Positions 5,748 through 26,987 of a stretch of 64,000 nucleotides of DNA are shown piece by piece. The position numbers and the translations under genes are program-made. This DNA comes from Shewanella seohaensis. GTDB lineage: Bacteria > Pseudomonadota > Gammaproteobacteria > Enterobacterales > Shewanellaceae. The stretch's first letter is position 1. Each line of letters starts with the position of its first letter. Below the pieces are notes generated by a model. The model made no database searches. It had not been told where the DNA came from and saw nothing but the letters and a program-made list of their open reading frames with translations. The stretch lies in the NCBI RefSeq assembly GCF_025449215.1, contig NZ_CP104900.1:4278001-4342000 (forward strand). The letters are read 5' to 3'.

Positions 5748-6725
5748 ATGGCAGGAATGCTAATGCGGGTTCTCACGTCGATACTCATTTTGGCCGCGAC
5801 CTTATCGCTTACGGGTTGTGGCGATGACAGGCCAGAGAAAATTGAGAAGTATCAACAACTCACTCAGCAGCGCCTCTCGACACTCAATACCATGCTCGAG
5901 GACGGTCAGGTACGTAACGCCAATCTGCTCAAGCAATATAGCAGTTTGCTCAAACAGCAAAAGCCCGATTTCGCGCCACTCTTGGATGAATTAGCCAAGG
6001 ATTCAACCGCCGAAGGGCCAATGTATACGTCGCTGAAGCGCCGCTTAGACGATGCCAAGAACCCGGCTAACTTTACCGATCTCGACCAGCAACTCGCCGA
6101 GGTTGAGAATCTCTATCAAGCGGCCGATCCCAGCCTGTATAACGACATGCTTTCCGATCCGGTCAACGTGATTGCCGATATGTCGGATGGCAAGCTTGCC
6201 CGCGTTAATGCCATCAGCCGTGAAGCGGCGGCCCTTGCCAATAATGCCGAAGATTTTGGCCCTGGTAGCCAATTGGTGGGTAACCCAGCCTACGGCAGCT
6301 GGCAGACAGACTCGAGCGGCATGTCCTTCTGGGCTTGGTACGGCATGTATTCGATGTTTTCGAATATCTTCCACCGCCCCATTTATTACGACCGTTGGTC
6401 GGGTAACCGTGGCTACAGCTATTACAACGACGTAGGTCGCTATCGCTATACCTCGCCAAAACAAGCACAGGCGCAGGAAAAAACCTTCGAGCAGACCAAA
6501 AAACGTTTCGATTCTCAAGGGAAACGCTTCGACAGCCCCTATTCAAAATCGCGCACGGGTGCCACGGCTCTCTCCCGTGAGAGCAGCAGCGCGCCTAAAA
6601 CCAATACCACAGCGAATAAGTCGAGCGCGCAGTCGGGCAGCAAATTCCGCTCAAATTATTCTAAAGACAGTAGCTTCCGTAATTCCAGCAACCGCACGAC
6701 CCGCAGTGTGCGCCGAGGCAAGTAA
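5748..6725 (+). CDS. Putative lipoprotein opening the yjf-like cluster
   Basis: A 325-aa protein with a signal peptide ending in LTGC, a lipobox, so Cys-24 or so should be lipidated in the envelope. The middle is helical and acidic. A region around residues 185-230 is rich in Gly, Tyr, Trp and Ser. The last 70 residues are a low-complexity Ser/Asn/Arg/Lys tail ending in RRGK. No catalytic motif is recognised. GGAG precedes the ATG at 5748. It lies 15 bp before the DUF350 gene and so is probably the first gene of that operon. It may stand in for E. coli YjfM, but I do not see real similarity to DUF1190. Confidence 0.75.
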   Translation: MAGMLMRVLTSILILAATLSLTGCGDDRPEKIEKYQQLTQQRLSTLNTMLEDGQVRNANLLKQYSSLLKQQKPDFAPLLDELAKDSTAEGPMYTSLKRRLDDAKNPANFTDLDQQLAEVENLYQAADPSLYNDMLSDPVNVIADMSDGKLARVNAISREAAALANNAEDFGPGSQLVGNPAYGSWQTDSSGMSFWAWYGMYSMFSNIFHRPIYYDRWSGNRGYSYYNDVGRYRYTSPKQAQAQEKTFEQTKKRFDSQGKRFDSPYSKSRTGATALSRESSSAPKTNTTANKSSAQSGSKFRSNYSKDSSFRNSSNRTTRSVRRGK

Positions 6726-6740
6726 ACTAAAGGATCTCCC

Positions 6741-7640
6741 ATGACATTATTTCAGGATTTCGGTATCACACCAGAGCTAGTCACCATACTGGCAATTGAC
6801 CTCACTATTGCGGTTATCTTGTTGACATTAATGCGTTATTTGCAGGGTTGGAGCGTCAGAGTCAACAGCAGTAAAGAACTGGCTGAACGCGATAACTTTG
6901 CCTTTGGGATCAGCACCGCCGGCGCCGTTGCCGCGCTCGGCATAGTGCTGACCGGTGCTATTACTGGCACAGCTGCGCCCTCGTATTTAACCGAAGCCAT
7001 TGGCATGAGCGCCTACGGGTTATTTGGTTTAGTGCTGATTAAACTCGGACGTTTTTTACACGACAAAATCGCGCTAAATGAGTTAGATAAGAATCAGCAA
7101 ATCCTTAAAGGCAATGTGTCTGTCGCCATTGTAGATGCGAGCGCCGCCATCGCTACCGCGATCATTATTCGCGCCGTCCTGCTATGGGCCGAGGATTTAA
7201 CACTCGATACCTTTATTGCCATCTTCAGCGCCTTTGCGATTTCGCAGTTGATGCTAGTGCTACTCACCCGCCTACGCGAAAAACGCTTCGCGAGTCGTAA
7301 TCAAGACTCTTCCATGCAGCAAGCTCTCGCCCAAGGCCACACTGCGTTAGCCATTCGCCACGCAGGTTTTATGATCGCCATGGCGTTAAGCTTTAATGCC
7401 GCGAGTCATTTTATCCTGTTCAACCCAACCGCCTATGTGACCAACATCATCGGCTGGTTAGTGTTCTCTATCATCATGTTGGTGGTACTGACACTGCTGC
7501 TATTCGTAATCAAAAAGCTGGTGCTGGCACGAATCGATTTAGCGGATGAGGTAGAGAGACAGCACAACATTGGTATCGCTGCCGTGGAAATGGCCATCAG
7601 TATTGCTATCGCACTTATTCTCACGGCCCTAATGGCGTAA
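6741..7640 (+). CDS. Double DUF350 (YjfL-like) membrane protein
   Basis: A 299-aa integral membrane protein with about eight hydrophobic segments arranged as two similar halves, as in tandem DUF350 proteins. E. coli YjfL has one half. The charged loop between the halves contains REKRFASRNQDSSM. Its biochemical role is unknown. The family recurs with PspA-like proteins and polyamine-linked enzymes, as it does here: the next gene starts 4 bp downstream and encodes a membrane spermidine-synthase-like enzyme, so the two are almost certainly co-translated. Confidence 0.85.
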   Translation: MTLFQDFGITPELVTILAIDLTIAVILLTLMRYLQGWSVRVNSSKELAERDNFAFGISTAGAVAALGIVLTGAITGTAAPSYLTEAIGMSAYGLFGLVLIKLGRFLHDKIALNELDKNQQILKGNVSVAIVDASAAIATAIIIRAVLLWAEDLTLDTFIAIFSAFAISQLMLVLLTRLREKRFASRNQDSSMQQALAQGHTALAIRHAGFMIAMALSFNAASHFILFNPTAYVTNIIGWLVFSIIMLVVLTLLLFVIKKLVLARIDLADEVERQHNIGIAAVEMAISIAIALILTALMA

Positions 7641-11936: not shown

Positions 11937-12769
11937 ATGTTAGGCATGACAGATAAAACCCCTTGGTCGCTCCGCTCTTTGGGTAATCCATCTCCCTTCG
12001 AATTCGCCATGATGCTGTTGTCGCTGCTGTCGGTCATCATAGTGTTAGTGATGACCTTTGGCCGACTCGACAAAGAAACCTACCGGTTACTGTTTTTTAT
12101 CGATACCACGATTTGCATGATTTTTATGGTTAACTTTTTCGTTGGCCTATTTCGCGCACGCGATAAAGTATTTTATCTGCGCCATCATTGGATTGATTTT
12201 ATCGCCAGTATTCCCGCCATCGAGGCACTGCGTATCGCGAGGGTGTTCCAAATTCTGCGGGTGATACGCTTAATTCGCATGAGCCGTTCTTTCCTTATTC
12301 CATTGATAAAGCAGCGAAAACAAGCAACCCTCGCCAGCTTACTGGTCGCTATGGTGACCATTTTAACCTTCGCTTCTATCATCATTCTGATTGTCGAAAG
12401 TGGCACCGAGGGCGCCAATATCCAAACTGCCGAGCAAGCCATTTGGTGGGCCTTAGTGACTATTTCGACCGTGGGTTATGGCGATTTTTATCCCGTCAGC
12501 ACTGCAGGGCATATTGTTGGCGGCATAGTGATTGTCAGTGGCGTGAGTTTTTCGGGGTGATTTCGGGTTATATGGCCTCGGTATTTGTCGCTCCCGATGA
12601 AAGCGAGCGCCAAGAACGTCAAGACGCCCATAAGGCAGAGATTAAAAGCGAACTCGAAATGGCTCTTGCCAGAATGGAAGAAAATCAGCGGCAGATGGAG
12701 CAAAATCAAGCGCAGATGCTGGCCAAAATTGCCGAGTTAAAACAGGCATTGGAAGCCCAAAAAAATTAG
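11937..12769 (+). pseudogene. Voltage-gated-like potassium channel, frameshifted
   Basis: Reading across one missing base gives a channel of about 277 aa. It has S1-S4-like segments with an Arg-rich fourth helix (RIARVFQILRVIRLIRMSR, residues about 100-118), a pore with the filter TVGYG near residues 178-182, a last helix, and a cytoplasmic coiled coil rich in Glu/Gln/Lys to 12769. The break is at the T5 run 12548-12552; six T would restore GVSFFGVISGYMAS. The starts at 11937 and 11946 cannot be separated. It closes the yjf-like cluster and may respond to membrane stress with its neighbours. The deletion is probably a sequence error. Confidence 0.82.
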
Positions 12770-17464: not shown

Positions 17465-17575
17465 CTGCGCGCGCAAAGCTTCATATTGTATACAAAATAT
17501 CAAATGCGTTTCGCGCCCCCATTTTTGTTTCAACAATAGAGCCCAAAACAACTGGCCAAGATGGAAGCGATTACT

Positions 17576-20500
17576 ATGTTCAAAGCGAGTGAAGTGCTGG
17601 CAGGCCGCTACGATTCTGCCAATCTCGACGAACTGTTCAAAGCCGTCACCGACAACTACATTGTCGATGAAGAACAATACTTGTCAGAGCTAATCAAACT
17701 AGTGCCCTCCAGTGATGAAGCCATCGAGCGCGTCACTCGTCGTGCCCACGAACTGGTCAACAAAGTTCGTCAATTCGATAAGAAAGGTTTAATGGTTGGC
17801 ATCGACGCCTTCCTGCAGCAATACAGCCTAGAAACACAGGAAGGGATTATCCTGATGTGTTTAGCCGAAGCCCTGCTGCGTATTCCCGATGCGGCCACCG
17901 CCGACGCCTTGATTGAAGATAAACTCTCAGGCGCGAAATGGGATGAACACTTAAGCAAGAGCGATTCGGTTCTGGTTAACGCCTCCACTTGGGGCCTGAT
18001 GCTCACTGGCAAAATCGTCAAACTCGATAAAAAAATCGATGGTACGCCAAGCAACCTGTTAAACCGTTTAGTGAATCGTCTAGGTGAGCCTGTGATCCGC
18101 CAAGCCATGATGGCGGCGATGAAGATCATGGGTAAGCAGTTCGTTCTCGGCCGCACCATGAAAGAAGCGCTCAAGAACAGCGAAGACAAGCGTAAATTAG
18201 GTTACACCCATTCCTACGATATGCTGGGTGAAGCCGCGCTGACGCGTAAAGATGCCGAAAAATACTTTACCGATTATGCCAATGCGATTACCGAGTTAGG
18301 CGCGCAAAGCTATAACGAAAACGAATCTCCACGCCCAACTATTTCTATCAAGCTGTCGGCACTGCACCCACGTTACGAGGTCGCTAACGAAGACCGTGTA
18401 CTGACCGAGCTGTATGACACCGTTATTCGCTTAATTAAGTTAGCCCGTGGCTTAAATATCGGTATTTCTATCGACGCCGAAGAAGTTGACCGCCTCGAAC
18501 TGTCGCTAAAACTGTTCCAAAAACTGTTTAATTCTGACGCCACTAAGGGTTGGGGCTTACTCGGTATTGTGGTGCAAGCTTACTCTAAGCGCGCCCTGCC
18601 GGTGCTGGTATGGTTAACCCGCCTAGCGAAAGAGCAAGGCGACGAAATCCCCGTTCGCTTAGTGAAAGGCGCCTACTGGGATAGCGAGCTGAAATGGGCA
18701 CAACAAGCTGGCGAAGCTGCTTACCCACTCTACACCCGCAAAGCCGGTACTGACGTTTCTTACTTAGCCTGTGCGCGTTACCTGTTATCCGACGCCACCC
18801 GCGGCGCGATTTACCCACAATTTGCCAGCCACAACGCGCAAACCGTTGCCGCGATTTCCGATATGGCGGGCGATCGTAACCACGAGTTCCAACGCCTACA
18901 CGGTATGGGACAAGAGCTGTACGACACTATTCTGTCGGAAGCTGGCGCGAAAGCGGTACGTATCTACGCTCCAATCGGTGCCCATAAGGATCTGCTGCCC
19001 TACTTAGTGCGTCGCCTGCTGGAAAACGGTGCGAACACCTCGTTCGTACACAAGCTGGTCGACCCGAAAACCCCTATCGAGTCTTTAGTGGTTCACCCAC
19101 TGAAAACCCTGACAGGCTACAAAACCCTGGCTAACAACAAAATCGTTTTACCTACCGACATCTTCGGTAGCGATCGCAAAAATTCCAAGGGACTCAATAT
19201 GAACATCATTTCAGAAGCAGAGCCATTCTTCGCGGCCTTAGACAAATTCAAATCGACGCAGTGGCAAGCGGGCCCTCTGGTTAATGGTCAAACCTTAACT
19301 GGCGAGCACAAAACCGTGGTGAGCCCATTCGATACCACCCAAACCGTGGGTCAAGTGGCCTTTGCCGACAAAGCGGCTATCGAACAAGCTGTCGCCTCTG
19401 CCGATGCCGCGTTTGCAACTTGGACTCGTACTCCGGTTGAAGTGCGCGCCTCAGCCCTACAAAAGCTGGCGGATCTGTTAGAAGAAAACCGCGAAGAACT
19501 GATTGCCCTCTGTACCCGTGAAGCGGGCAAGAGCATTCAAGACGGTATCGACGAAGTGCGTGAGGCCGTAGACTTCTGCCGCTACTACGCGGTGCAAGCT
19601 AAGAAGCTGATGTCAAAACCTGAACTGCTCCCAGGCCCAACGGGTGAGTTAAACGAACTCTTCCTCCAAGGTCGCGGTGTGTTCGTCTGTATCAGCCCAT
19701 GGAACTTCCCATTAGCTATCTTCTTAGGCCAAGTTTCGGCAGCCCTCGCTGCAGGTAACACTGTAGTGGCTAAACCTGCTGAACAGACTTCTATCATTGG
19801 TTACCGCGCAGTGCAGCTCGCACACCAAGCGGGTATTCCAACGGACGTGCTGCAATATCTACCAGGCACTGGCGCTACCGTAGGTAACGCACTGACGGCT
19901 GATGAGCGCATCGGCGGCGTATGTTTTACCGGTTCAACTGGCACAGCCAAACTCATCAACCGCACACTGGCAAACCGTGAAGGCGCAATTATTCCGTTAA
20001 TCGCCGAAACTGGTGGTCAAAACGCTATGGTGGTTGACTCTACTTCTCAGCCAGAACAAGTGGTTAACGATGTAGTGTCTTCATCCTTCACCAGTGCGGG
20101 TCAACGCTGCTCGGCGCTGCGTGTACTCTTCCTACAGGAAGATATTGCAGACCGCGTTATCGACGTACTCCAAGGTGCAATGGATGAGTTAGTGATTGGC
20201 AACCCAAGTTCAGTGAAAACTGACGTAGGCCCAGTTATCGATGCGACCGCGAAGGCGAACCTTGACGCCCATATCGACCACATCAAGCAAGTGGGTAAGT
20301 TGATCAAGCAAATGTCTCTGCCAGCGGGTACCGAGAATGGCCACTTTGTGTCACCAACTGCCGTTGAAATTGACTCAATCAAAGTGCTTGAAAAAGAACA
20401 CTTTGGTCCAATCCTGCACGTGATCCGTTACAAGGCATCTGAACTTGCCCATGTGATCGATGAAATCAACAGCACAGGCTTTGGCTTAACTTTAGGCATC

Positions 20501-20755
20501 CACAGCCGTAACGAAGGCCACGCCCTCGAAGTGGCTGACAAGGTTAACGTAGGTAACGTGTACATTAACCGTAACCAAATCGGCGCAGTGGTTGGCGTAC
20601 AGCCTTTCGGCGGCCAAGGTCTGTCGGGCACAGGTCCAAAGGCCGGTGGTCCACACTACTTAACTCGCTTCGTGACTGAAAAGACTCGCACTAACAACAT
20701 CACCGCTATCGGTGGTAATGCGACCCTGTTGTCACTGGGTGATAGCGACGCCTAA
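17576..20755 (+). CDS. putA: Bifunctional proline dehydrogenase / P5C dehydrogenase
   Basis: A 1059-aa enzyme that oxidises proline to glutamate in two steps at the inner membrane face. Residues about 90-510 hold the FAD-dependent proline dehydrogenase (SIDAEEVDRLELSLKLF, RLVKGAYWDSE). Residues about 560-1050 hold the NAD-dependent aldehyde dehydrogenase with the Glu motif AETGGQNAMVV and the catalytic Cys motif TSAGQRCSALRV. It lacks the N-terminal ribbon-helix-helix of E. coli PutA, so it is not expected to repress its own gene. The start at 17576 is preferred because GGAAG is well spaced there; 17561 would add five residues. Confidence 0.96.
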   Translation: MFKASEVLAGRYDSANLDELFKAVTDNYIVDEEQYLSELIKLVPSSDEAIERVTRRAHELVNKVRQFDKKGLMVGIDAFLQQYSLETQEGIILMCLAEALLRIPDAATADALIEDKLSGAKWDEHLSKSDSVLVNASTWGLMLTGKIVKLDKKIDGTPSNLLNRLVNRLGEPVIRQAMMAAMKIMGKQFVLGRTMKEALKNSEDKRKLGYTHSYDMLGEAALTRKDAEKYFTDYANAITELGAQSYNENESPRPTISIKLSALHPRYEVANEDRVLTELYDTVIRLIKLARGLNIGISIDAEEVDRLELSLKLFQKLFNSDATKGWGLLGIVVQAYSKRALPVLVWLTRLAKEQGDEIPVRLVKGAYWDSELKWAQQAGEAAYPLYTRKAGTDVSYLACARYLLSDATRGAIYPQFASHNAQTVAAISDMAGDRNHEFQRLHGMGQELYDTILSEAGAKAVRIYAPIGAHKDLLPYLVRRLLENGANTSFVHKLVDPKTPIESLVVHPLKTLTGYKTLANNKIVLPTDIFGSDRKNSKGLNMNIISEAEPFFAALDKFKSTQWQAGPLVNGQTLTGEHKTVVSPFDTTQTVGQVAFADKAAIEQAVASADAAFATWTRTPVEVRASALQKLADLLEENREELIALCTREAGKSIQDGIDEVREAVDFCRYYAVQAKKLMSKPELLPGPTGELNELFLQGRGVFVCISPWNFPLAIFLGQVSAALAAGNTVVAKPAEQTSIIGYRAVQLAHQAGIPTDVLQYLPGTGATVGNALTADERIGGVCFTGSTGTAKLINRTLANREGAIIPLIAETGGQNAMVVDSTSQPEQVVNDVVSSSFTSAGQRCSALRVLFLQEDIADRVIDVLQGAMDELVIGNPSSVKTDVGPVIDATAKANLDAHIDHIKQVGKLIKQMSLPAGTENGHFVSPTAVEIDSIKVLEKEHFGPILHVIRYKASELAHVIDEINSTGFGLTLGIHSRNEGHALEVADKVNVGNVYINRNQIGAVVGVQPFGGQGLSGTGPKAGGPHYLTRFVTEKTRTNNITAIGGNATLLSLGDSDA

Positions 20756-20806: not shown

Positions 20807-21405
20807 TTGGCGAATAAATACTTACAGCTAAATGCAATTCCATAAATAATTATATCAATCAATTACTTTGGCATCATTTGAGGGATGATTTTTAGATATC
20901 TGAATATTATGGGAGTCTTCGCATTTTTCATTTGAGTTTATCAATCAAAAGCAAAGTCGTGGGGCTTCACCCCACACCCGACCAAGGAGGACTGCTCGTC
21001 CTATCAAAAACGTCCATGTTAAATAGCCAGCTCGATATCCCTATCTCGCGCTCAAAGCGACTTTTAGCCTTCGCCCTTGGATGCTCCAAGACGCCCCTAG
21101 CGAAGTTACTGCGTTGGTTAGTGGCTTCGCAGGGGAAGGTGAACTCCTGAAATTACAGTGCCAGCTGTTAATCTGAAAAGAGTTCTACCTGTCCTTCTTT
21201 GTGAGCAGCTGAAGGGCGCTGAATATAAGGTCTTGGATATGTTCATGCCGCCATAGTGTGGCGGCATGAGAGAAAGCGGGGTTTATGGTGGTTTAGTCAT
21301 TGCACAAGTAAATGAATCTCAAATGATTCCAATGGGATTACGCTTCGGTTAGCATAAGATTAACTGCTTATAAATGATGACTTCATAAATAACATGGAGA
21401 TACAA
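20807..21405. other. Gene-free stretch upstream of the OLD-type gene
   Basis: No convincing gene is present. It holds the inverted, truncated repeat copy 1 (20953-21145), a perfect hairpin CATGCCGCCA-TAGTG-TGGCGGCATG at 21244-21268, and A+T-rich sequence before the OLD-type gene that should contain its promoter, although no clear -35/-10 pair stands out. Confidence 0.6.
20953..21145 (-). repeat. Structured interspersed repeat, copy 1 (inverted, truncated)
   Basis: On the minus strand this copy shares the palindromic tail TCGGGTGTGGGGTGAAGCCC with copies 2 and 3. It also shares GTTCACCTTCCCCTGCGAAG with copy 3, and the GTAACTTCGCTAGGG block. The head containing GGCACAGATCTTCGGGGA is missing. 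The interior differs from the other copies. Confidence 0.8.
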
Positions 21406-23253
21406 ATGAGTTTCCCTATCACGGTTACTGCCAATATTGATAGCCAAGCAGTAAATAGCACTCTAGAAATAATTCTTCACAATGGATTGACTACCCTAAT
21501 TGGCCCAAATGGTTCAGGAAAAACACATATTTTACGTTCATTAAAATATGCCCTCCTTCCCCATTTAGAAAACAAAAAGGTTCGTTTCTTGTCTGCTGGC
21601 AGAATGAGCCCACTTGAGAACTACCGCTCAGATTACGGTGGATATGGTGGAAATCCAGATTTTGATCGTGCTCGACTAGGAAGCTCATCTGATACAAGCA
21701 GAAGACATTCAATTGAAACTTTAAACGGTGATTTTCAAACCTTATCCCAACGTGCAGATATACTAATTAAAATCCAAGAGCGATTACGCAAGCTCTTCAA
21801 CAAAGATATCGTGCTCGATTGGGATTCCAATGGCCTCAAAGCATCATTCATTAATCTAGATAATCCTGATAGTCAGTATTCATCAGGTAAAGAAGCCTCA
21901 GGTTTAATTCATTTAGTTGGGATATTATCTGCATTGTATGATGATGAAGTAGGGGCATTACTTATTGATGAACCAGAGGTTTCTCTCCATCCACAACTTC
22001 AATCATTCCTTCTGCAAGAAATAATTAATGCATCTGGACATCCAAATGAAGGTGGATATAAAAAAATCATAGTAATTGCGACCCACTCTACAGAAATGTT
22101 TAAGATCAATAAACCATCAGATCTACCATCAATTATCTTTTGTCACGGCATATCAAAACCACCAGTACAAATCCCAACAGATGCTGGCGAATTAAACAAT
22201 AGAAAAGTAAAAGAACTTATCGCTCGACTAGGTCAGGAGCATAAACTCGCCCTATTCTCAAAGCGCCCCTTACTTGTGGAAGGCCCATCCGATATTTTTA
22301 TATGTAGTGCCTTATCAAATATTTTTGATATTCATCTTGAAGCGGCTGGCTCTCAACTTTTACCTGTCATAGGTAAAGGACAGATGTCAGTCGTCGCAAA
22401 GCTCTTTAGGTTAATGGGCAAAGAACCTGTAGCCTTGGTTGATGCTGATGGTATTGCAGATGGAACAGCTCTCGTCAGTGGTTACTTAGTTGGGAATACA
22501 TATGCTGATGAACTTGCAAGTGAGTCTGGGGCAGCCACGGCAAATGATATGGCTACAGATATTTACAATGACTTCTGCAGACTTGTTACCAATGAATGGA
22601 ATAGCATAGCCATATTAGCTGAGCAACATCCATACTGGATTAACAAATCTCAAGATGATGATCTTATAGTTTCAAAACGCAGAGCAACATTCTGTACACT
22701 TTTTACACATGAAGATGAAGAACTGCCCCAACCATTCATTTCAATTAAAAGAAGACTTACAGCACTTTTAAACATTTTGGAAAAATGCGGTCTCTTTATT
22801 CTTAGGAAAGGATCCATTGAATCATATTACTTAACATCAGATCAAAATACCTCTATAGGTAAACCGAATGCTGCCATTGATGAAATTGACTCATTCTACA
22901 GCATTAACAAGTCTGATTTAACAACGTCATATGGAGATGTCATCAGATGCATTACTCATGCTGCAATGACTCAAAAAATAAGTGAGGCCGAAGCACTAAG
23001 AGCACTAATCCTTGCCATTGTATCTCCTGCGCATGAGATGTTTAAGAGCACTCCTACATCAACTCACTTCAATGCTTTAGCTAGGTCAATCCTTGGCGGA
23101 CGTTCAGAAATGTTTGATCTAGCAGTTAAAAATGACAGGCTCATCATTACTATTAAAAGTAATATCCTTGACGTTGATAGCTTCCCTGTTGAACTCAGCA
23201 GGGATGACAATGTACCTCAAGTTATTAACAGAGCTCTAGGTATCACCTCTTAA
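21406..23253 (+). CDS. OLD-family ATPase/TOPRIM endonuclease (probable defence gene)
   Basis: A 615-aa protein with a complete ABC/SMC-type ATPase followed by a TOPRIM domain. Walker A GPNGSGKT is at about 33-40, a degenerate signature SSGKEASGL at about 165, Walker B LLIDEPEVSLHPQ at about 185, and the switch His IATHS at about 225. The TOPRIM Glu (LLVEGPSD) is near 290 and the DAD motif (ALVDADG) near 346. This is the layout of OLD overcoming-lysogenization-defect nucleases. No UvrD-like GajB partner follows, so it looks like a stand-alone (class 1-like) member. The start at 21406 has GGAG six bases upstream. It is A+T-rich compared with its neighbours and bounded by repeats, so it was probably acquired. 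DNA cleavage and anti-phage activity are inferred. Confidence 0.85.
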   Translation: MSFPITVTANIDSQAVNSTLEIILHNGLTTLIGPNGSGKTHILRSLKYALLPHLENKKVRFLSAGRMSPLENYRSDYGGYGGNPDFDRARLGSSSDTSRRHSIETLNGDFQTLSQRADILIKIQERLRKLFNKDIVLDWDSNGLKASFINLDNPDSQYSSGKEASGLIHLVGILSALYDDEVGALLIDEPEVSLHPQLQSFLLQEIINASGHPNEGGYKKIIVIATHSTEMFKINKPSDLPSIIFCHGISKPPVQIPTDAGELNNRKVKELIARLGQEHKLALFSKRPLLVEGPSDIFICSALSNIFDIHLEAAGSQLLPVIGKGQMSVVAKLFRLMGKEPVALVDADGIADGTALVSGYLVGNTYADELASESGAATANDMATDIYNDFCRLVTNEWNSIAILAEQHPYWINKSQDDDLIVSKRRATFCTLFTHEDEELPQPFISIKRRLTALLNILEKCGLFILRKGSIESYYLTSDQNTSIGKPNAAIDEIDSFYSINKSDLTTSYGDVIRCITHAAMTQKISEAEALRALILAIVSPAHEMFKSTPTSTHFNALARSILGGRSEMFDLAVKNDRLIITIKSNILDVDSFPVELSRDDNVPQVINRALGITS

Positions 23254-23483
23254 TAAACAGACCAGCAGTCCTCGGAAAGACAGGACAGGCACAGATCTTC
23301 GGGGATTAATAGCTCGCACTGTTGCGTCAGAAGTTCACCCTCCCTCGGAGTTGCCGCAGGGCATTTGCGGTCGTTGCGTGAGCGAGGCATGGATAATGGA
23401 ATGGACCCATCCACTTTTAATCGGCCTCGCAATGGGCCACGATGTAGTCGCTAAAACTCATCAGAAAGAGGACGGGTCCACCT

Positions 23484-24491
23484 ATGAAGATTACTACAAT
23501 TGGTTTAGATATCGCAAAGTCTGTTTTTCATGCTGTTGGTGTCGATAAAGCTGGCAAGTTAATCAAAAAGAAAATGCTTAGACGCAAAGACTTGCTTCCC
23601 TCTCTTGCTCAAATTGAGCCGTGCCTAATTGTGATGGAAGCCTGTGGTGGAGCAAATTACTGGGCCAGAGAATTTCAGCTGTTGGGCCATAACGTCAAGC
23701 TAATCGCACCTCAATTTGTCGTGCCTTTTCGGCAAGGTAACAAAAATGACTACAACGATGCCTTAGCCATCGCTGAAGCTGCGCAGCGACCCAACATGCG
23801 GTTTGTAAAACCCAAAAGCGTCGAGCAGCAAGATGTGCAACTGCTCCACCGTATGCGTGAGCGATTAACTAAGCAATCAACAGCGTTAATCAACCAAGTG
23901 CGAGGCATGTTAGCAGAATACGGCATCGTGATAGCCAAAAGTAAATCGGCTTTTAAAGTACAGTTCCCAGATATTTTAGCGGATGAAACCAATGCGCTGA
24001 CCACCAAAGGTCGGGCCATTTTTTATCAGTTATATGAAGAGTTTAGTGATATAGAAAAACGGCTTAAGGGTTGTGATGCCCAAGTACTCACTGAAACTAA
24101 AAACAATGTGATTTGCCAGCGTTTAGAGACTATCCCAGGTATTGGTCCCGTCACCGCTACCGCCTTTTATGCCGCCGCAGGTGATGGTAAAGATTTCACT
24201 AATGGTAGGCACTTTTCAGCTTGGTGTGCCAAGCAACACAGCAGTGGAGGTAAAGACAACCTCCTTGGAATAAGCAAACGGGGAAATGCGTATTTACGCA
24301 CCCTGTTCATTCACGGCGCCAGAGCGGTGTTGCAACACAGCCAGAATAAGCAAGATAAGTTTAGTTGCTGGGCAATCCAGTTAGCAGAGCGCCGAGGCTT
24401 TAACCGAGCTTGTGTGGCCGTCGCCAATAAGCTCGCCAGAATGGCATGGGTTATCGCGGCGCATGACGAAGAATATCGACTTCCAGTATAG
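23484..24491 (+). CDS. IS110/IS1111-family DEDD transposase
   Basis: A 335-aa recombinase. The RuvC-like DEDD domain has Asp-9 in TTIGLDIAK, Glu near 52 in VMEACGG, and Asp residues near 89-93 in NKNDYNDALAIAEA. The C-terminal transposase_20 domain contains LETIPGIGPVTA (helix-hairpin-helix-like) and the serine region CAKQHSSGGK near 254, the second half of the composite active site. The length is complete and there are no frameshifts, so it may be active. GAGGA precedes the ATG. Confidence 0.95.
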   Translation: MKITTIGLDIAKSVFHAVGVDKAGKLIKKKMLRRKDLLPSLAQIEPCLIVMEACGGANYWAREFQLLGHNVKLIAPQFVVPFRQGNKNDYNDALAIAEAAQRPNMRFVKPKSVEQQDVQLLHRMRERLTKQSTALINQVRGMLAEYGIVIAKSKSAFKVQFPDILADETNALTTKGRAIFYQLYEEFSDIEKRLKGCDAQVLTETKNNVICQRLETIPGIGPVTATAFYAAAGDGKDFTNGRHFSAWCAKQHSSGGKDNLLGISKRGNAYLRTLFIHGARAVLQHSQNKQDKFSCWAIQLAERRGFNRACVAVANKLARMAWVIAAHDEEYRLPV

Positions 24492-24742
24492 TGCTGAATA
24501 GATTCAATAAACGTTAATAATTAACCAACCAGCAAGTTGCTAAGACACTTGATTTGATGATGAGACAGTCAGACTGATCTACTGAAAACCTTAGTCGGGC
24601 ATAGGCTCATAATGAAGCCGCAAGGATGATAAGGGCAGTAGAAGCAGATATCCATCAGGGCCAGAGAGATCCCTCAACAACAGGCCGGATATATGGGTGC
24701 AATGAACTCTTCTCAAAATCGCTATCGAATGTCTTGCAAACC
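24492..24742 (+). ncRNA. Probable guide (bridge/seek) RNA region of the IS1111-type element
   Basis: In IS1111-group elements the structured target-guiding RNA is encoded in the long non-coding stretch after the transposase; this stretch is about 250 nt. It contains GGCATA (24598-24603) and ATATCCAT (24648-24655). Both match the complement of the rejoined target GGCATGGATATGCC around the insertion. The exact ends of the RNA and its loops cannot be set by eye. Confidence 0.5.
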
Positions 24743-25001
24743 GGATGGGTCCATATATGCCGAGATAGCGTCAGTCGAATCAGGGACGAGCGTCTGACGC
24801 GATAGCATAAGAACGCTTAATGGCCAAGGGGCTTTCAACTCCGTTGGGGACGCCGGGGGATATCCAAAAGGGGAACAGGCGCTTTTCCCCTTTTGGTCGG
24901 GTGTGGGGTGAAGCCCCACGACGTTGATTCACCTCGGCCGAAAGGCCGCAATTACTCATATACCCACCGCGATAAGCTTGCCAATTCAAACACCAAAAAA
25001 G

Positions 25002-25625
25002 ATGGAACAACCACAACTCTTTTGCGGAACGATGATGGTAAAAATACTCCATTACATTCAATGTCTTATAGTATTTTCTATTACAATACTTTTGAGTTAC
25101 ATGATTTTCAAAAAAATCGCAGAAAACCAACCGTTAGCTGCGGTCCTATACTTCTTGGTTGCGTTATTAGTCACCATTCCTTTTTTCCTACGTATAAACC
25201 CGTTCACTCTTTATGAAGGATATTGGGAGACAATTTGTGCAATATTTATGGTTGTCGGTATTATTGCTGCAATCATAGCCAGTCCAATATTTGACTTTTC
25301 AAGTACAAAAACAGACTTAAGCCTGATGACACAATCAATCACCAATAAGAATTGTCCATATGAAAAGCAACGTGATGTTCAAAAGAGAAATGAATATTAC
25401 AATTTGAATGAAATCCTGTTGAAAAAGTGTGCACTTCAATCTAACCGTGATCAACTTGAATTTGTTATAAACATTTCAAAAGCAACATATTTAGATCCAG
25501 TTACGGGGACAATTGATAGCTTATACAACGATTTAAATTTGCGTGAAAAACCAATGACCTGCCAAGATATTGCAAAAATCATGGACTCATTATGTCCCGG
25601 CCACTTAATAATTAGAACGAACTAA
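25002..25625 (+). CDS. Unknown membrane protein with three helices (accessory)
   Basis: A protein of about 207 aa (197 aa if it starts at 25032). Three transmembrane segments occupy the first 110 residues: HYIQCLIVFSITILLSYMIF, PLAAVLYFLVALLVTIPFFL and AIFMVVGIIAAIIASPIF. A soluble tail of about 95 residues follows, with four Cys and no motif I recognise. Codon use is A+T-rich, like the OLD-type gene and unlike the flanking chromosome. It is the only gene between repeat copies 2 and 3, which are in direct orientation. The open frame reaches back into the repeat (TTG at 24924), but an internal ATG is more likely. Confidence 0.65.
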   Translation: MEQPQLFCGTMMVKILHYIQCLIVFSITILLSYMIFKKIAENQPLAAVLYFLVALLVTIPFFLRINPFTLYEGYWETICAIFMVVGIIAAIIASPIFDFSSTKTDLSLMTQSITNKNCPYEKQRDVQKRNEYYNLNEILLKKCALQSNRDQLEFVINISKATYLDPVTGTIDSLYNDLNLREKPMTCQDIAKIMDSLCPGHLIIRTN

Positions 25626-25654
25626 GTTCTAACCATTAACAAAAAGATGGGACA

Positions 25655-25972
25655 AAAGACAAGACAGGCACAGATCTTCGGGGACTAATAGCTCGCACAG
25701 TTGCGTCAGAAGTTCACCTTCCCCTGCGAAGTTGCTGAAGGGCGTTGAAGAAAATCGCGTGACGCAGATAGGACGTCTGCGTAGCTTTCGGGGGAAGGGA
25801 CGCCCCATCGGAAGCGTTAGCTATTTTCGAATAAGCACGAAGCCACTCATCAATGCATGTAACTTCGCTAGGGACGCCGGGGATTTCCAAAAGGGGAACA
25901 GGCGTTTTTCCCCTTTTGGTCGGGTGTGGGGTGAAGCCCCACGACTTTGATTCACCTCGGCCGAACGGCCGC
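25655..25972 (+). repeat. Structured interspersed repeat, copy 3 (intact, about 318 bp)
   Basis: An uninterrupted copy. It has the head GGCACAGATCTTCGGGGA, a variable core, and a right end with two hairpins: CCAAAAGGGGAA pairing with TTCCCCTTTTGG, and GTGGGG-TGAAG-CCCCAC. It closes with CGGCCGAACGGCCG. It contains no gene; a 72-codon frame inside it is not credible. Confidence 0.8.
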
Positions 25973-26252
25973 CATTTAACGCAATAGCATTAAGGACACT
26001 TAATCCTCAAGCGCCCCGCTCCGAGGTATGACCCCAACGCATTTTTCTCACTCACTTACCTCACATGAATTTCCTCAAAACTGAGTCTCACTAAGCAAGA
26101 CGTTTGAAAGCCAATGTGAGCGGCTTCAAATTGTGAATAGGTGAGATTTGAAAGCGATATGAGGGGATTGCGCCTAAGAGATAAAAACCTTCATAATCGC
26201 CATTCAATCAACCGATTTTTTACTTTCTCAAAGTCACTTTCTCAAGGCAGCT
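25973..26252. other. Gene-free stretch before the DUF599 gene
   Basis: No gene is supported. The sequence leads up to the DUF599 gene and presumably carries its promoter; I see no clear -35/-10 pair. It marks the right edge of the accessory block. Confidence 0.5.
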
Positions 26253-26987
26253 ATGACATTCTCGCTATTAGATATTTCTGCATTAACGTGGTTTATCGTT
26301 TCTTGGGCTGGCTATACCGCTTTTGCCCGACGCAAAGCGAAGGATACCGACTGTATTGCCCGTGGCCTGCATAAACATCGAATTTACTGGATGCTCGAGC
26401 TGATGACTCGAGGCGTGCGGGTAGGCGATGCGGCGTTATTAGCGAACCTTGAGCGTAATATTGCCTTTTTTGCCTCGACCACGTTGTTCGTGCTCGCGGG
26501 GGTATTAACCTTATTTGCCCAGGTTGAACGCCTCGAAGCCGTGATTGCTACGATTCCCTATGCTACGCCGCCGAATCACTCCTTAGTCCAAGTGAAGTTA
26601 GCGCTGTTGGTGGTGATCTTCGTGATGGCGTTTTTCCAATTTACTTGGTCAATGCGCCAATACGGCTTTGTGAACGTGATGATAGGCGCAGGCCCCATGG
26701 ATAGCGAAGGCGCCAATGACAACCTCAAAGCCTACGCGCGGCAAATGGCGACGGTGCAAGACCAAGCCGCCCATTCCTATAACTATGGCCTGCGAGCTTA
26801 CTACTTTTCGATGGCTGTGCTCTGCTGGTTTGTGCACCCGATACTGTTTATTTTGGCTAGCCTGTTTGTGGTGGTCACCCTGTATCGCCGCGAATTTAAA
26901 TCCCGCGCCGTAATAGCCATTACCGCCGCCAAGGCACATTTAGGTAGCGAATATCAGGCGCGAGAAACCCAGCGCCAAGCCAAGTAG
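26253..26987 (+). CDS. DUF599 family membrane protein
   Basis: A 244-aa protein with about four transmembrane segments. The N-terminal SALTWFIVSWAGYTAF is typical of DUF599, and conserved GLRAYYFSMAVLCWFVHP lies near residue 190. Function unknown. AAGG precedes the ATG at 26253. Codon use returns to the chromosomal pattern here, so this is the first backbone gene right of the accessory block. Confidence 0.82.
   Translation: MTFSLLDISALTWFIVSWAGYTAFARRKAKDTDCIARGLHKHRIYWMLELMTRGVRVGDAALLANLERNIAFFASTTLFVLAGVLTLFAQVERLEAVIATIPYATPPNHSLVQVKLALLVVIFVMAFFQFTWSMRQYGFVNVMIGAGPMDSEGANDNLKAYARQMATVQDQAAHSYNYGLRAYYFSMAVLCWFVHPILFILASLFVVVTLYRREFKSRAVIAITAAKAHLGSEYQARETQRQAK

Follow-up and report, generated by a model that had tools for sequence, protein, structure and literature searches.

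We analysed a 64,000-nucleotide stretch of Shewanella seohaensis DNA (the window; assembly GCF_025449215.1, contig NZ_CP104900.1, forward-strand positions 4,278,001 to 4,342,000), in which a structured repeat occurs in three copies, interspersed with two A+T-rich genes, the whole flanked by putA on one side and a DUF599 gene on the other. With slightly more confidence than doubt, we read inverted, RNA-coding repeats of this family as the bounds of replaceable gene slots, refilled by homologous recombination within the repeats. The repeats would be resident boundary elements: at an intergenic site between core genes, two copies would face each other with 5′ ends inward and 3′ tails outward, enclosing either a short spacer (a vacant slot) or a GC-poor (guanine plus cytosine) cargo of one to few genes, often anti-phage. 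The cargo would be replaced through crossovers within the repeat, so that the outer tail and flank stay at the locus while the inner part and cargo are exchanged; additional cassettes can be placed between two copies of one orientation, which is the position of the second gene of the window. The exchanges themselves would be RecA-type recombination with incoming DNA. Computation yielded a repeat family, its RNA-like covariation, a fixed polarity, a distinct cargo composition, cargo that differs at the same site, and sequence similarity that ends inside the repeat.

The locus in the window, here hot-spot 1, is composed as follows (window coordinates).

17561..20755, plus strand: putA, left core gene (open reading frame (ORF); gene name from the initial annotation)
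about 20949..21200, minus strand: copy 1 of the repeat, inverted and with altered interior; its tail spans 20955-20980 (sequence comparison, covariance match)
21394..23253, plus strand: cargo 1, a 619-amino-acid (aa) AAA ATPase with an OLD-like TOPRIM domain (PF13304, PF20469)
23276..23394, plus strand: repeat copy 2, 5′ part (sequence comparison, covariance match)
about 23395..24758, plus strand: IS110-family insertion sequence (IS) inside the CATGGAT hairpin loop of copy 2 (ends read from the sequence)
23484-24491, plus strand: IS110 transposase (PF02371, PF01548)
24759..24953, plus strand: repeat copy 2, 3′ part, tail at 24897-24922 (sequence comparison)
25002..25625, plus strand: cargo 2, a protein with hydrophobic stretches and without Pfam or PADLOC match
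25655..25976, plus strand: repeat copy 3, intact, with 5′ extension, structured core (25721-25874), hairpin, tail (25920-25945) and CTCGGCCG hairpin
26253..26987, plus strand: DUF599 gene, right core gene (PF04654)

The initial annotation of this DNA, made from the letters alone, had described three copies of a repeat of about 315 bp, the first inverted and the second split by an IS; we recovered them at the positions it gave, with a length of about 320 bp and the third copy intact. Its observation of conserved ends in copies 2 and 3 holds as well (94-95% identity over 69 and 98 bp), as does that of one A+T-rich gene in each repeat-to-repeat interval, the IS apart: GC content is 0.386 in cargo 1 and 0.346 in cargo 2 against 0.517 for both putA and the DUF599 gene. 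Four covariance matches were found in the window, all within the three copies (two being the two parts of copy 2), with scores of 153.6 bits for the core of copy 3 and 22.5 bits for copy 1 (21094-21135, minus strand). The top PADLOC model for cargo 1 was GajA (67.7 bits). For cargo 2, a start at 25002 is more likely than the mechanical TTG start at 24924, which adjoins the repeat tail; the Pfam and PADLOC scans were run on the longer frame from 24924.

The repeat family exceeds chance in its own genome, a single contig of 4.75 Mb, where blastn returned 27 matches to copy 3 and the tail was found 17 times at no more than 3 mismatches, against 0 for a backwards control pattern. Four related genomes carry 18-20 copies each. 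Blastn matches were present in 21 of 24 Shewanella genomes (own genome included) and in 0 of 16 genomes of other genera, and the exact tail occurred in 99 stretches of named genomes, Shewanella being the source of all among the 80 matches listed. A covariance model (R1), built solely from Shewanella copies, had matches in 10 of 119 genomes sampled across the order, namely six Shewanella and four of other genera, three of the latter with a single match each. Plasmid, phage and viral collections queried with the repeat or tail gave no match. Some copies depart from the standard layout. At L155 (5102-6515; G017, another Shewanella) the repeat belongs to a 459-bp unit that recurs 3.1 times in tandem and has an additional 5′ domain; at L035 (about 6712-6960 and 12060-12289), L049 and L108 the same tail is fused to different upstream sequence with the motif GTTGCACCAGTGACC, replacing the usual core, which makes the tail look like a module in common use. 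Downstream of tails there is often at least one TTTGAC or TTTGAT unit (L061, L066, L079); L061 has five TTTGA units.

Covariation supports an RNA character of the repeat. A hand-drawn structure of 34 pairs, evaluated on 31 of 42 non-redundant copies, was formed in 92.2% of cells; in 17 of its pairs both partners change, a number matched by 5 of 500 shuffles. The covariation score was 0.342 against 0.133 in shuffles, none of 500 of which reached it, and at most 0.082 in slid versions, over which the hand-drawn structure is favoured since it was derived from the same sequences. The count of further pair types (41) was not above that in shuffles (285/500). G-U cells outnumbered A-C cells by 52 to 7 in the hand-drawn structure and, in a separate count over 42 copies, by 144 to 6, or 33 to 6 after removal of three G-U-dominated columns. 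The excess of G-U over A-C points to an RNA on the strand that runs from the 5′ extension to the tail. None of 100 shuffles of copy 3 folded as well as the copy itself (z = -3.53).

A GGA in the loop of a hairpin is a signature of CsrA/RsmA binding, and binding to GGA is also what abstracts on CsrA report. All 42 copies have GGA in the loop of their first hairpin, 28 of the 42 reading AUGGAU there, while its stem varies; the second hairpin is varied, and the pattern used for it truncated this hairpin in part of the copies. Each copy has on average 3.40 A(N)GGA(Y) motifs, compared with 1.15 in shuffles and 1.05 on the opposite strand; plain GGA, at 7.10 against 6.25 per copy, is within reach of the shuffles (highest 7.29). 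The own genome carries csrA. The repeat RNA may be made and, judged by these motifs, may bind CsrA through its GGA loops; it might also matter to the cargo. The same AUGGAU loop holds the IS110-family element of the window, and this element was also seen in the loop at L034, L036, L040, L041 and L177; all 6 left ends that were located are preceded by CATGGAT, and all 8 located right ends continue into repeat sequence.

The arrangement of copies is strongly polar. Among neighbouring cores less than 10 kb apart in ten genomes, 24 pairs face each other with 5′ ends inward and 0 with 5′ ends outward, next to 7 and 5 same-direction pairs; four of these genomes are close relatives with sites in common, which makes some pairs non-independent, and three one-match genomes were left out. 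Random placement would give less than one close neighbour per genome (computed for six genomes). In another set of loci, which come partly from the same genomes, the count was 23 against 0, with tails outward in 23 of 23. Vacant pairs make up 6 of the 24, with cores 68-205 bp apart, the other 18 being at least 936 bp apart.

What lies between the repeats is unlike its surroundings. In every one of 31 units, between-repeat DNA had a lower GC content than the remainder of the locus (medians 0.366 and 0.482), and its contents varied, in line with the association of repeats and accessory genes that had been proposed initially. The first 23 pairs enclose 34 cargo ORFs of at least 150 aa (IS110 transposase excluded), 30 of which were scanned with PADLOC; the total scanned was 52 proteins, some from alleles without a full pair. 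Scores above 100 bits were obtained for 12 of these 52 and for 0 of 10 flanking genes, the highest flanking score being that of a helicase (75 bits). The families concerned are PD-T4-2 A and B, retron-type RT_VI, a DNA methylase, caspase PDC-S65, PDC-S20 (twice), PDC-S21, capP, beta, Old and PDC-S54; we take the PDC models to represent candidate defence systems. Low-GC cargo without PADLOC or Pfam match includes a 295-aa gene at L033 and L166 (the L166 copy was scanned), an 899-aa gene at L035, a 271-aa gene at L111 and the window gene at 25002-25625; such genes are candidates for novel defence genes.

The same sites hold different content. At hot-spot 1, putA has orthologues whose C-terminal 300 aa are 95-99% identical in three relatives and 93% in a fourth. 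Twelve alleles of this site were compared, four of them with tails on both sides: the window (OLD-like gene plus second gene), PS-2 (L052; a different OLD/AriA-like gene), G061 (a 271-aa gene) and G055 (a vacant pair). G015 has only the left tail and carries PDC-S54 cargo; of the tail-less alleles, G040, G045, G002 and G006 have a three-gene operon, G058 and G007 other genes, and G052 is nearly empty. Content between putA and the DUF599 gene thus varies among close relatives rather than being identical in all, and in one close relative, G055, the site holds a vacant facing pair. Hot-spot 2, which follows what we take to be dnaJ, was compared in twelve alleles (three pairs, four single tails and five without tails, of which G055 retains a core by the covariance model). 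Hot-spot 3, presumably adjoining the fructose-bisphosphatase gene, has tails on both sides in 9 of 10 alleles and on one side in the remaining one; its cargo differs, five alleles sharing a NERD gene, and L067 is vacant. At all three hot-spots differing defence genes lie between conserved flanking core genes, as in core defence hot-spots. No Rfam tRNA was found among ten loci scanned. The comparison of L098 and L050, presumed to reveal an empty site, showed two different fillings. A second hairpin-rich repeat, with CCCCATGGACGGGG, was seen on the right side of hot-spot 1 (L111 5420-6480; L141 on the reverse strand, upstream of the DUF599 gene).

Traces of exchange were sought by comparing 177 elements, which yielded 60 non-independent pairs with alike outer flanks; some of these flanks may match as repeats and not as orthologues. 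Similarity stops within the 300-bp repeat in 41 of the 60. In four aligned cases flank, tail and first hairpin are near-identical and divergence starts in the repeat; in one of them similarity returns in the 5′ part, ahead of the cargo. A table of flank-against-element identities is too noisy, owing to indels, to carry the point by itself. The vacant pair of G055 resembles two different alleles: flank included, its left repeat matches that of G015 at 91% over 373 bp, and the right one matches the window's at 88% over 610 bp. Target-site duplication was absent in 32 units, with a mean best shared flank of 3.97 bases compared with 4.03 for mismatched flanks. Homologous recombination within the repeat would leave this pattern: flank and tail kept, inner part differing, and no duplication.

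Several observations weigh against recombinational slots as we describe them. Tails are missing from 7 of 12 alleles at hot-spot 1 and 5 of 12 at hot-spot 2, many of which carry cargo; the repeats are therefore common but not obligatory. Of the 60 pairs, 12 lose similarity outside the tail, and another 7 lose it deeper inside or keep it over the full 800 bp. Cargo shared between sites is nearly absent, 100 low-GC ORFs from eight sites yielding one two-gene family at two sites (53% and 66% identity). The comparison used one genome per species, and because of that sampling no exchange was caught in the act. Forty of the 52 scanned proteins scored below 100 bits and are weak or unassigned as defence genes. 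Outside Shewanella, in G330 and G440, low-GC genes lie beside the pair instead of between its members, and two wider intervals hold ordinary-GC genes, so the cargo rule does not simply carry over there; it does carry over at L193, from another family, where a gene of GC 0.34 (PADLOC Ppl, 83 bits) lies between two elements on a contig of GC 0.56. Finally, homologous recombination alone leaves the polarity unexplained; candidate causes are that the RNA or the tail insulates, or that the pairs descend from a palindromic unit that was vacant.

In a rival explanation, which we think unlikely while taking it seriously, the repeats are RNA or transcription boundaries (terminator, insulator or CsrA-binding RNA) kept by selection at the edges of low-GC genes, and cargo turns over through the flanking core genes with the repeats as bystanders. 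RNA-like covariation, the conserved GGA loops and a terminator-like tail hairpin, read outward in copies 1 and 3, would all suit a boundary, for which a fixed polarity is natural, and cargo also turns over at tail-less alleles. Against a bystander role speak similarity that stops in the repeat in 41 of 60 pairs, the exchange of repeat interiors at one site, and vacant pairs, which have no gene to insulate.

Less probable to us is a non-autonomous transposon, such as a miniature inverted-repeat transposable element (MITE) or a mobile insertion cassette with passengers, whose ends would be the tails and which a trans-acting enzyme would move. Vacant and filled units alike do end, on either side, in tails that form inverted repeats facing outward, and copies are scattered across the genome. 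Against this, units lack a target duplication, and several species use the same sites, where outer flank and tail are constant and the inner part changes. The one candidate enzyme that we followed is a 352-aa transposase-like protein without Pfam match (L168:4092-5147, minus strand, in hot-spot 2 of G058), by its motifs presumably like a REP-associated tyrosine transposase (RAYT; REP, repetitive extragenic palindromic). Full-length or fragment matches to it number 1 to 22 per genome in nine genomes, but it is not intact in G015 (18 repeat cores), G160 and G059, all of which bear repeats, and it is hence not needed in G015. The initial annotation had proposed swapping either by recombination or by a mobilising enzyme; the similarity ends within repeats favour the former, whereas the absent duplication and the state of the sole tested candidate in G015 speak against the latter.

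A more far-reaching form of the recombinational reading, which we regard as a quite doubtful speculation, would make facing pairs of TwoAYGGAY-type RNA elements a device dedicated to docking and insulating immune genes. As a long imperfect palindrome, the vacant pair would break easily and attract repair by incoming DNA that has these arms too; once filled, the slot would be stable, and the RNA, through CsrA-like GGA loops, would tie slot expression to the state of the cell. Judged by layout and base pairing, integron-like recombination sites with gene cassettes are highly improbable: structured repeats do adjoin cargoes of a single gene, and some do so in tandem (window copies 2 and 3; L203), but they face each other instead of sharing one direction, cargo genes lie in both orientations, similarity ends are spread along the repeat, and the excess of G-U over A-C points to RNA.

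Recombinational refilling between RNA-coding repeats, the reading that we keep, touches several known systems. Core-gene defence hot-spots (PMC10250203), facing REP dimers (PMC3733652) and the TwoAYGGAY motif (PMC2864571) are already known, as the consulted parts of these papers describe. In the titles and abstracts listed by searches of the open-licence literature, outside which most subscription papers fall, neither these repeats as limits of cargo nor a combination of the three at the edges of small exchangeable slots came up.

For TwoAYGGAY (RF01731), a source table in Weinberg et al. 2010 (PMC2864571) marks the motif as probably RNA and probably not cis-regulatory. The Rfam search of the window copies gave no relevant match, copy 3 having no RF01731 match up to E 10, and the own genome has 0 matches. 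In relatives, RF01731 and R1 matches coincide above the gathering cut-off of 43 bits at L193 (55.9 and 54.1 bits), L205 (54.8), L199 (57.1) and L194 (48.9; L186 is the same place), L193 and L205 each being from another family, and RF01731 falls below the cut-off at L155, L198, L160 and L179. By these matches at places found by R1, the repeat core is a diverged relative of TwoAYGGAY, the window copy not being classed as a member. Both probably have two hairpins with GGA loops, the second being varied among the Shewanella copies; the Shewanella repeat differs in its extra 3′ hairpin and tail and in forming facing pairs around cargo. Across the class, RF01731 was matched in 17 of 274 genomes (at most nine candidates scored per genome); among the matches listed, close opposite-facing neighbours were of the 5′-inward kind in 5 cases against 0, all in two genomes of one genus (G330 and G440), and one same-direction pair occurred elsewhere. 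The comparison links RF01731, an RNA motif of unknown function, to defence-gene slots, and the docking and insulation device, if true, would be the first function for TwoAYGGAY.

CsrA-sequestering RNAs of the CsrB/RsmY type likewise have several A(N)GGA motifs, some in hairpin loops (consulted part of PMC3171408); the repeat, a putative RNA that is alike in motifs, differs in its many dispersed copies in place of few small RNA genes. REP elements, in the relevant part of PMC3733652, are 20-40 bp long with a GTAG or CGTC tag, and their dimers are also palindromic intergenic repeats, often facing and sometimes with DNA between the partners. With its length of about 300 bp, a branched core that covaries and a cargo of genes, the Shewanella repeat is not of the REP or bacterial interspersed mosaic element (BIME) kind; GTAG was not seen at the inspected tails, and the RAYT-like candidate is dispensable. 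MITEs and mobile insertion cassettes have inverted ends and passenger genes and no transposase. Facing pairs share with them the terminal inverted repeats, with outward tails in 23 of 23 pairs, and differ in that neither a target duplication nor a partner transposase (one candidate looked for in nine genomes) was found.

A parallel in content is with the core defence hot-spots of Pseudomonas aeruginosa, which, as far as the consulted part of PMC10250203 describes them, hold varied anti-phage genes between shared core genes, lack any one evident mobilising element, span 1-224 kb (median 26 kb) and are flanked by tRNA or transfer-messenger RNA genes; how such slots are refilled is left open there. 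The Shewanella slots are about 1-6 kb and repeat-bounded, and many of their cargo genes without family match become candidate defence genes. They thereby offer a sequence handle on the possible refilling of small defence slots that have neither a tRNA nor an evident integrase.

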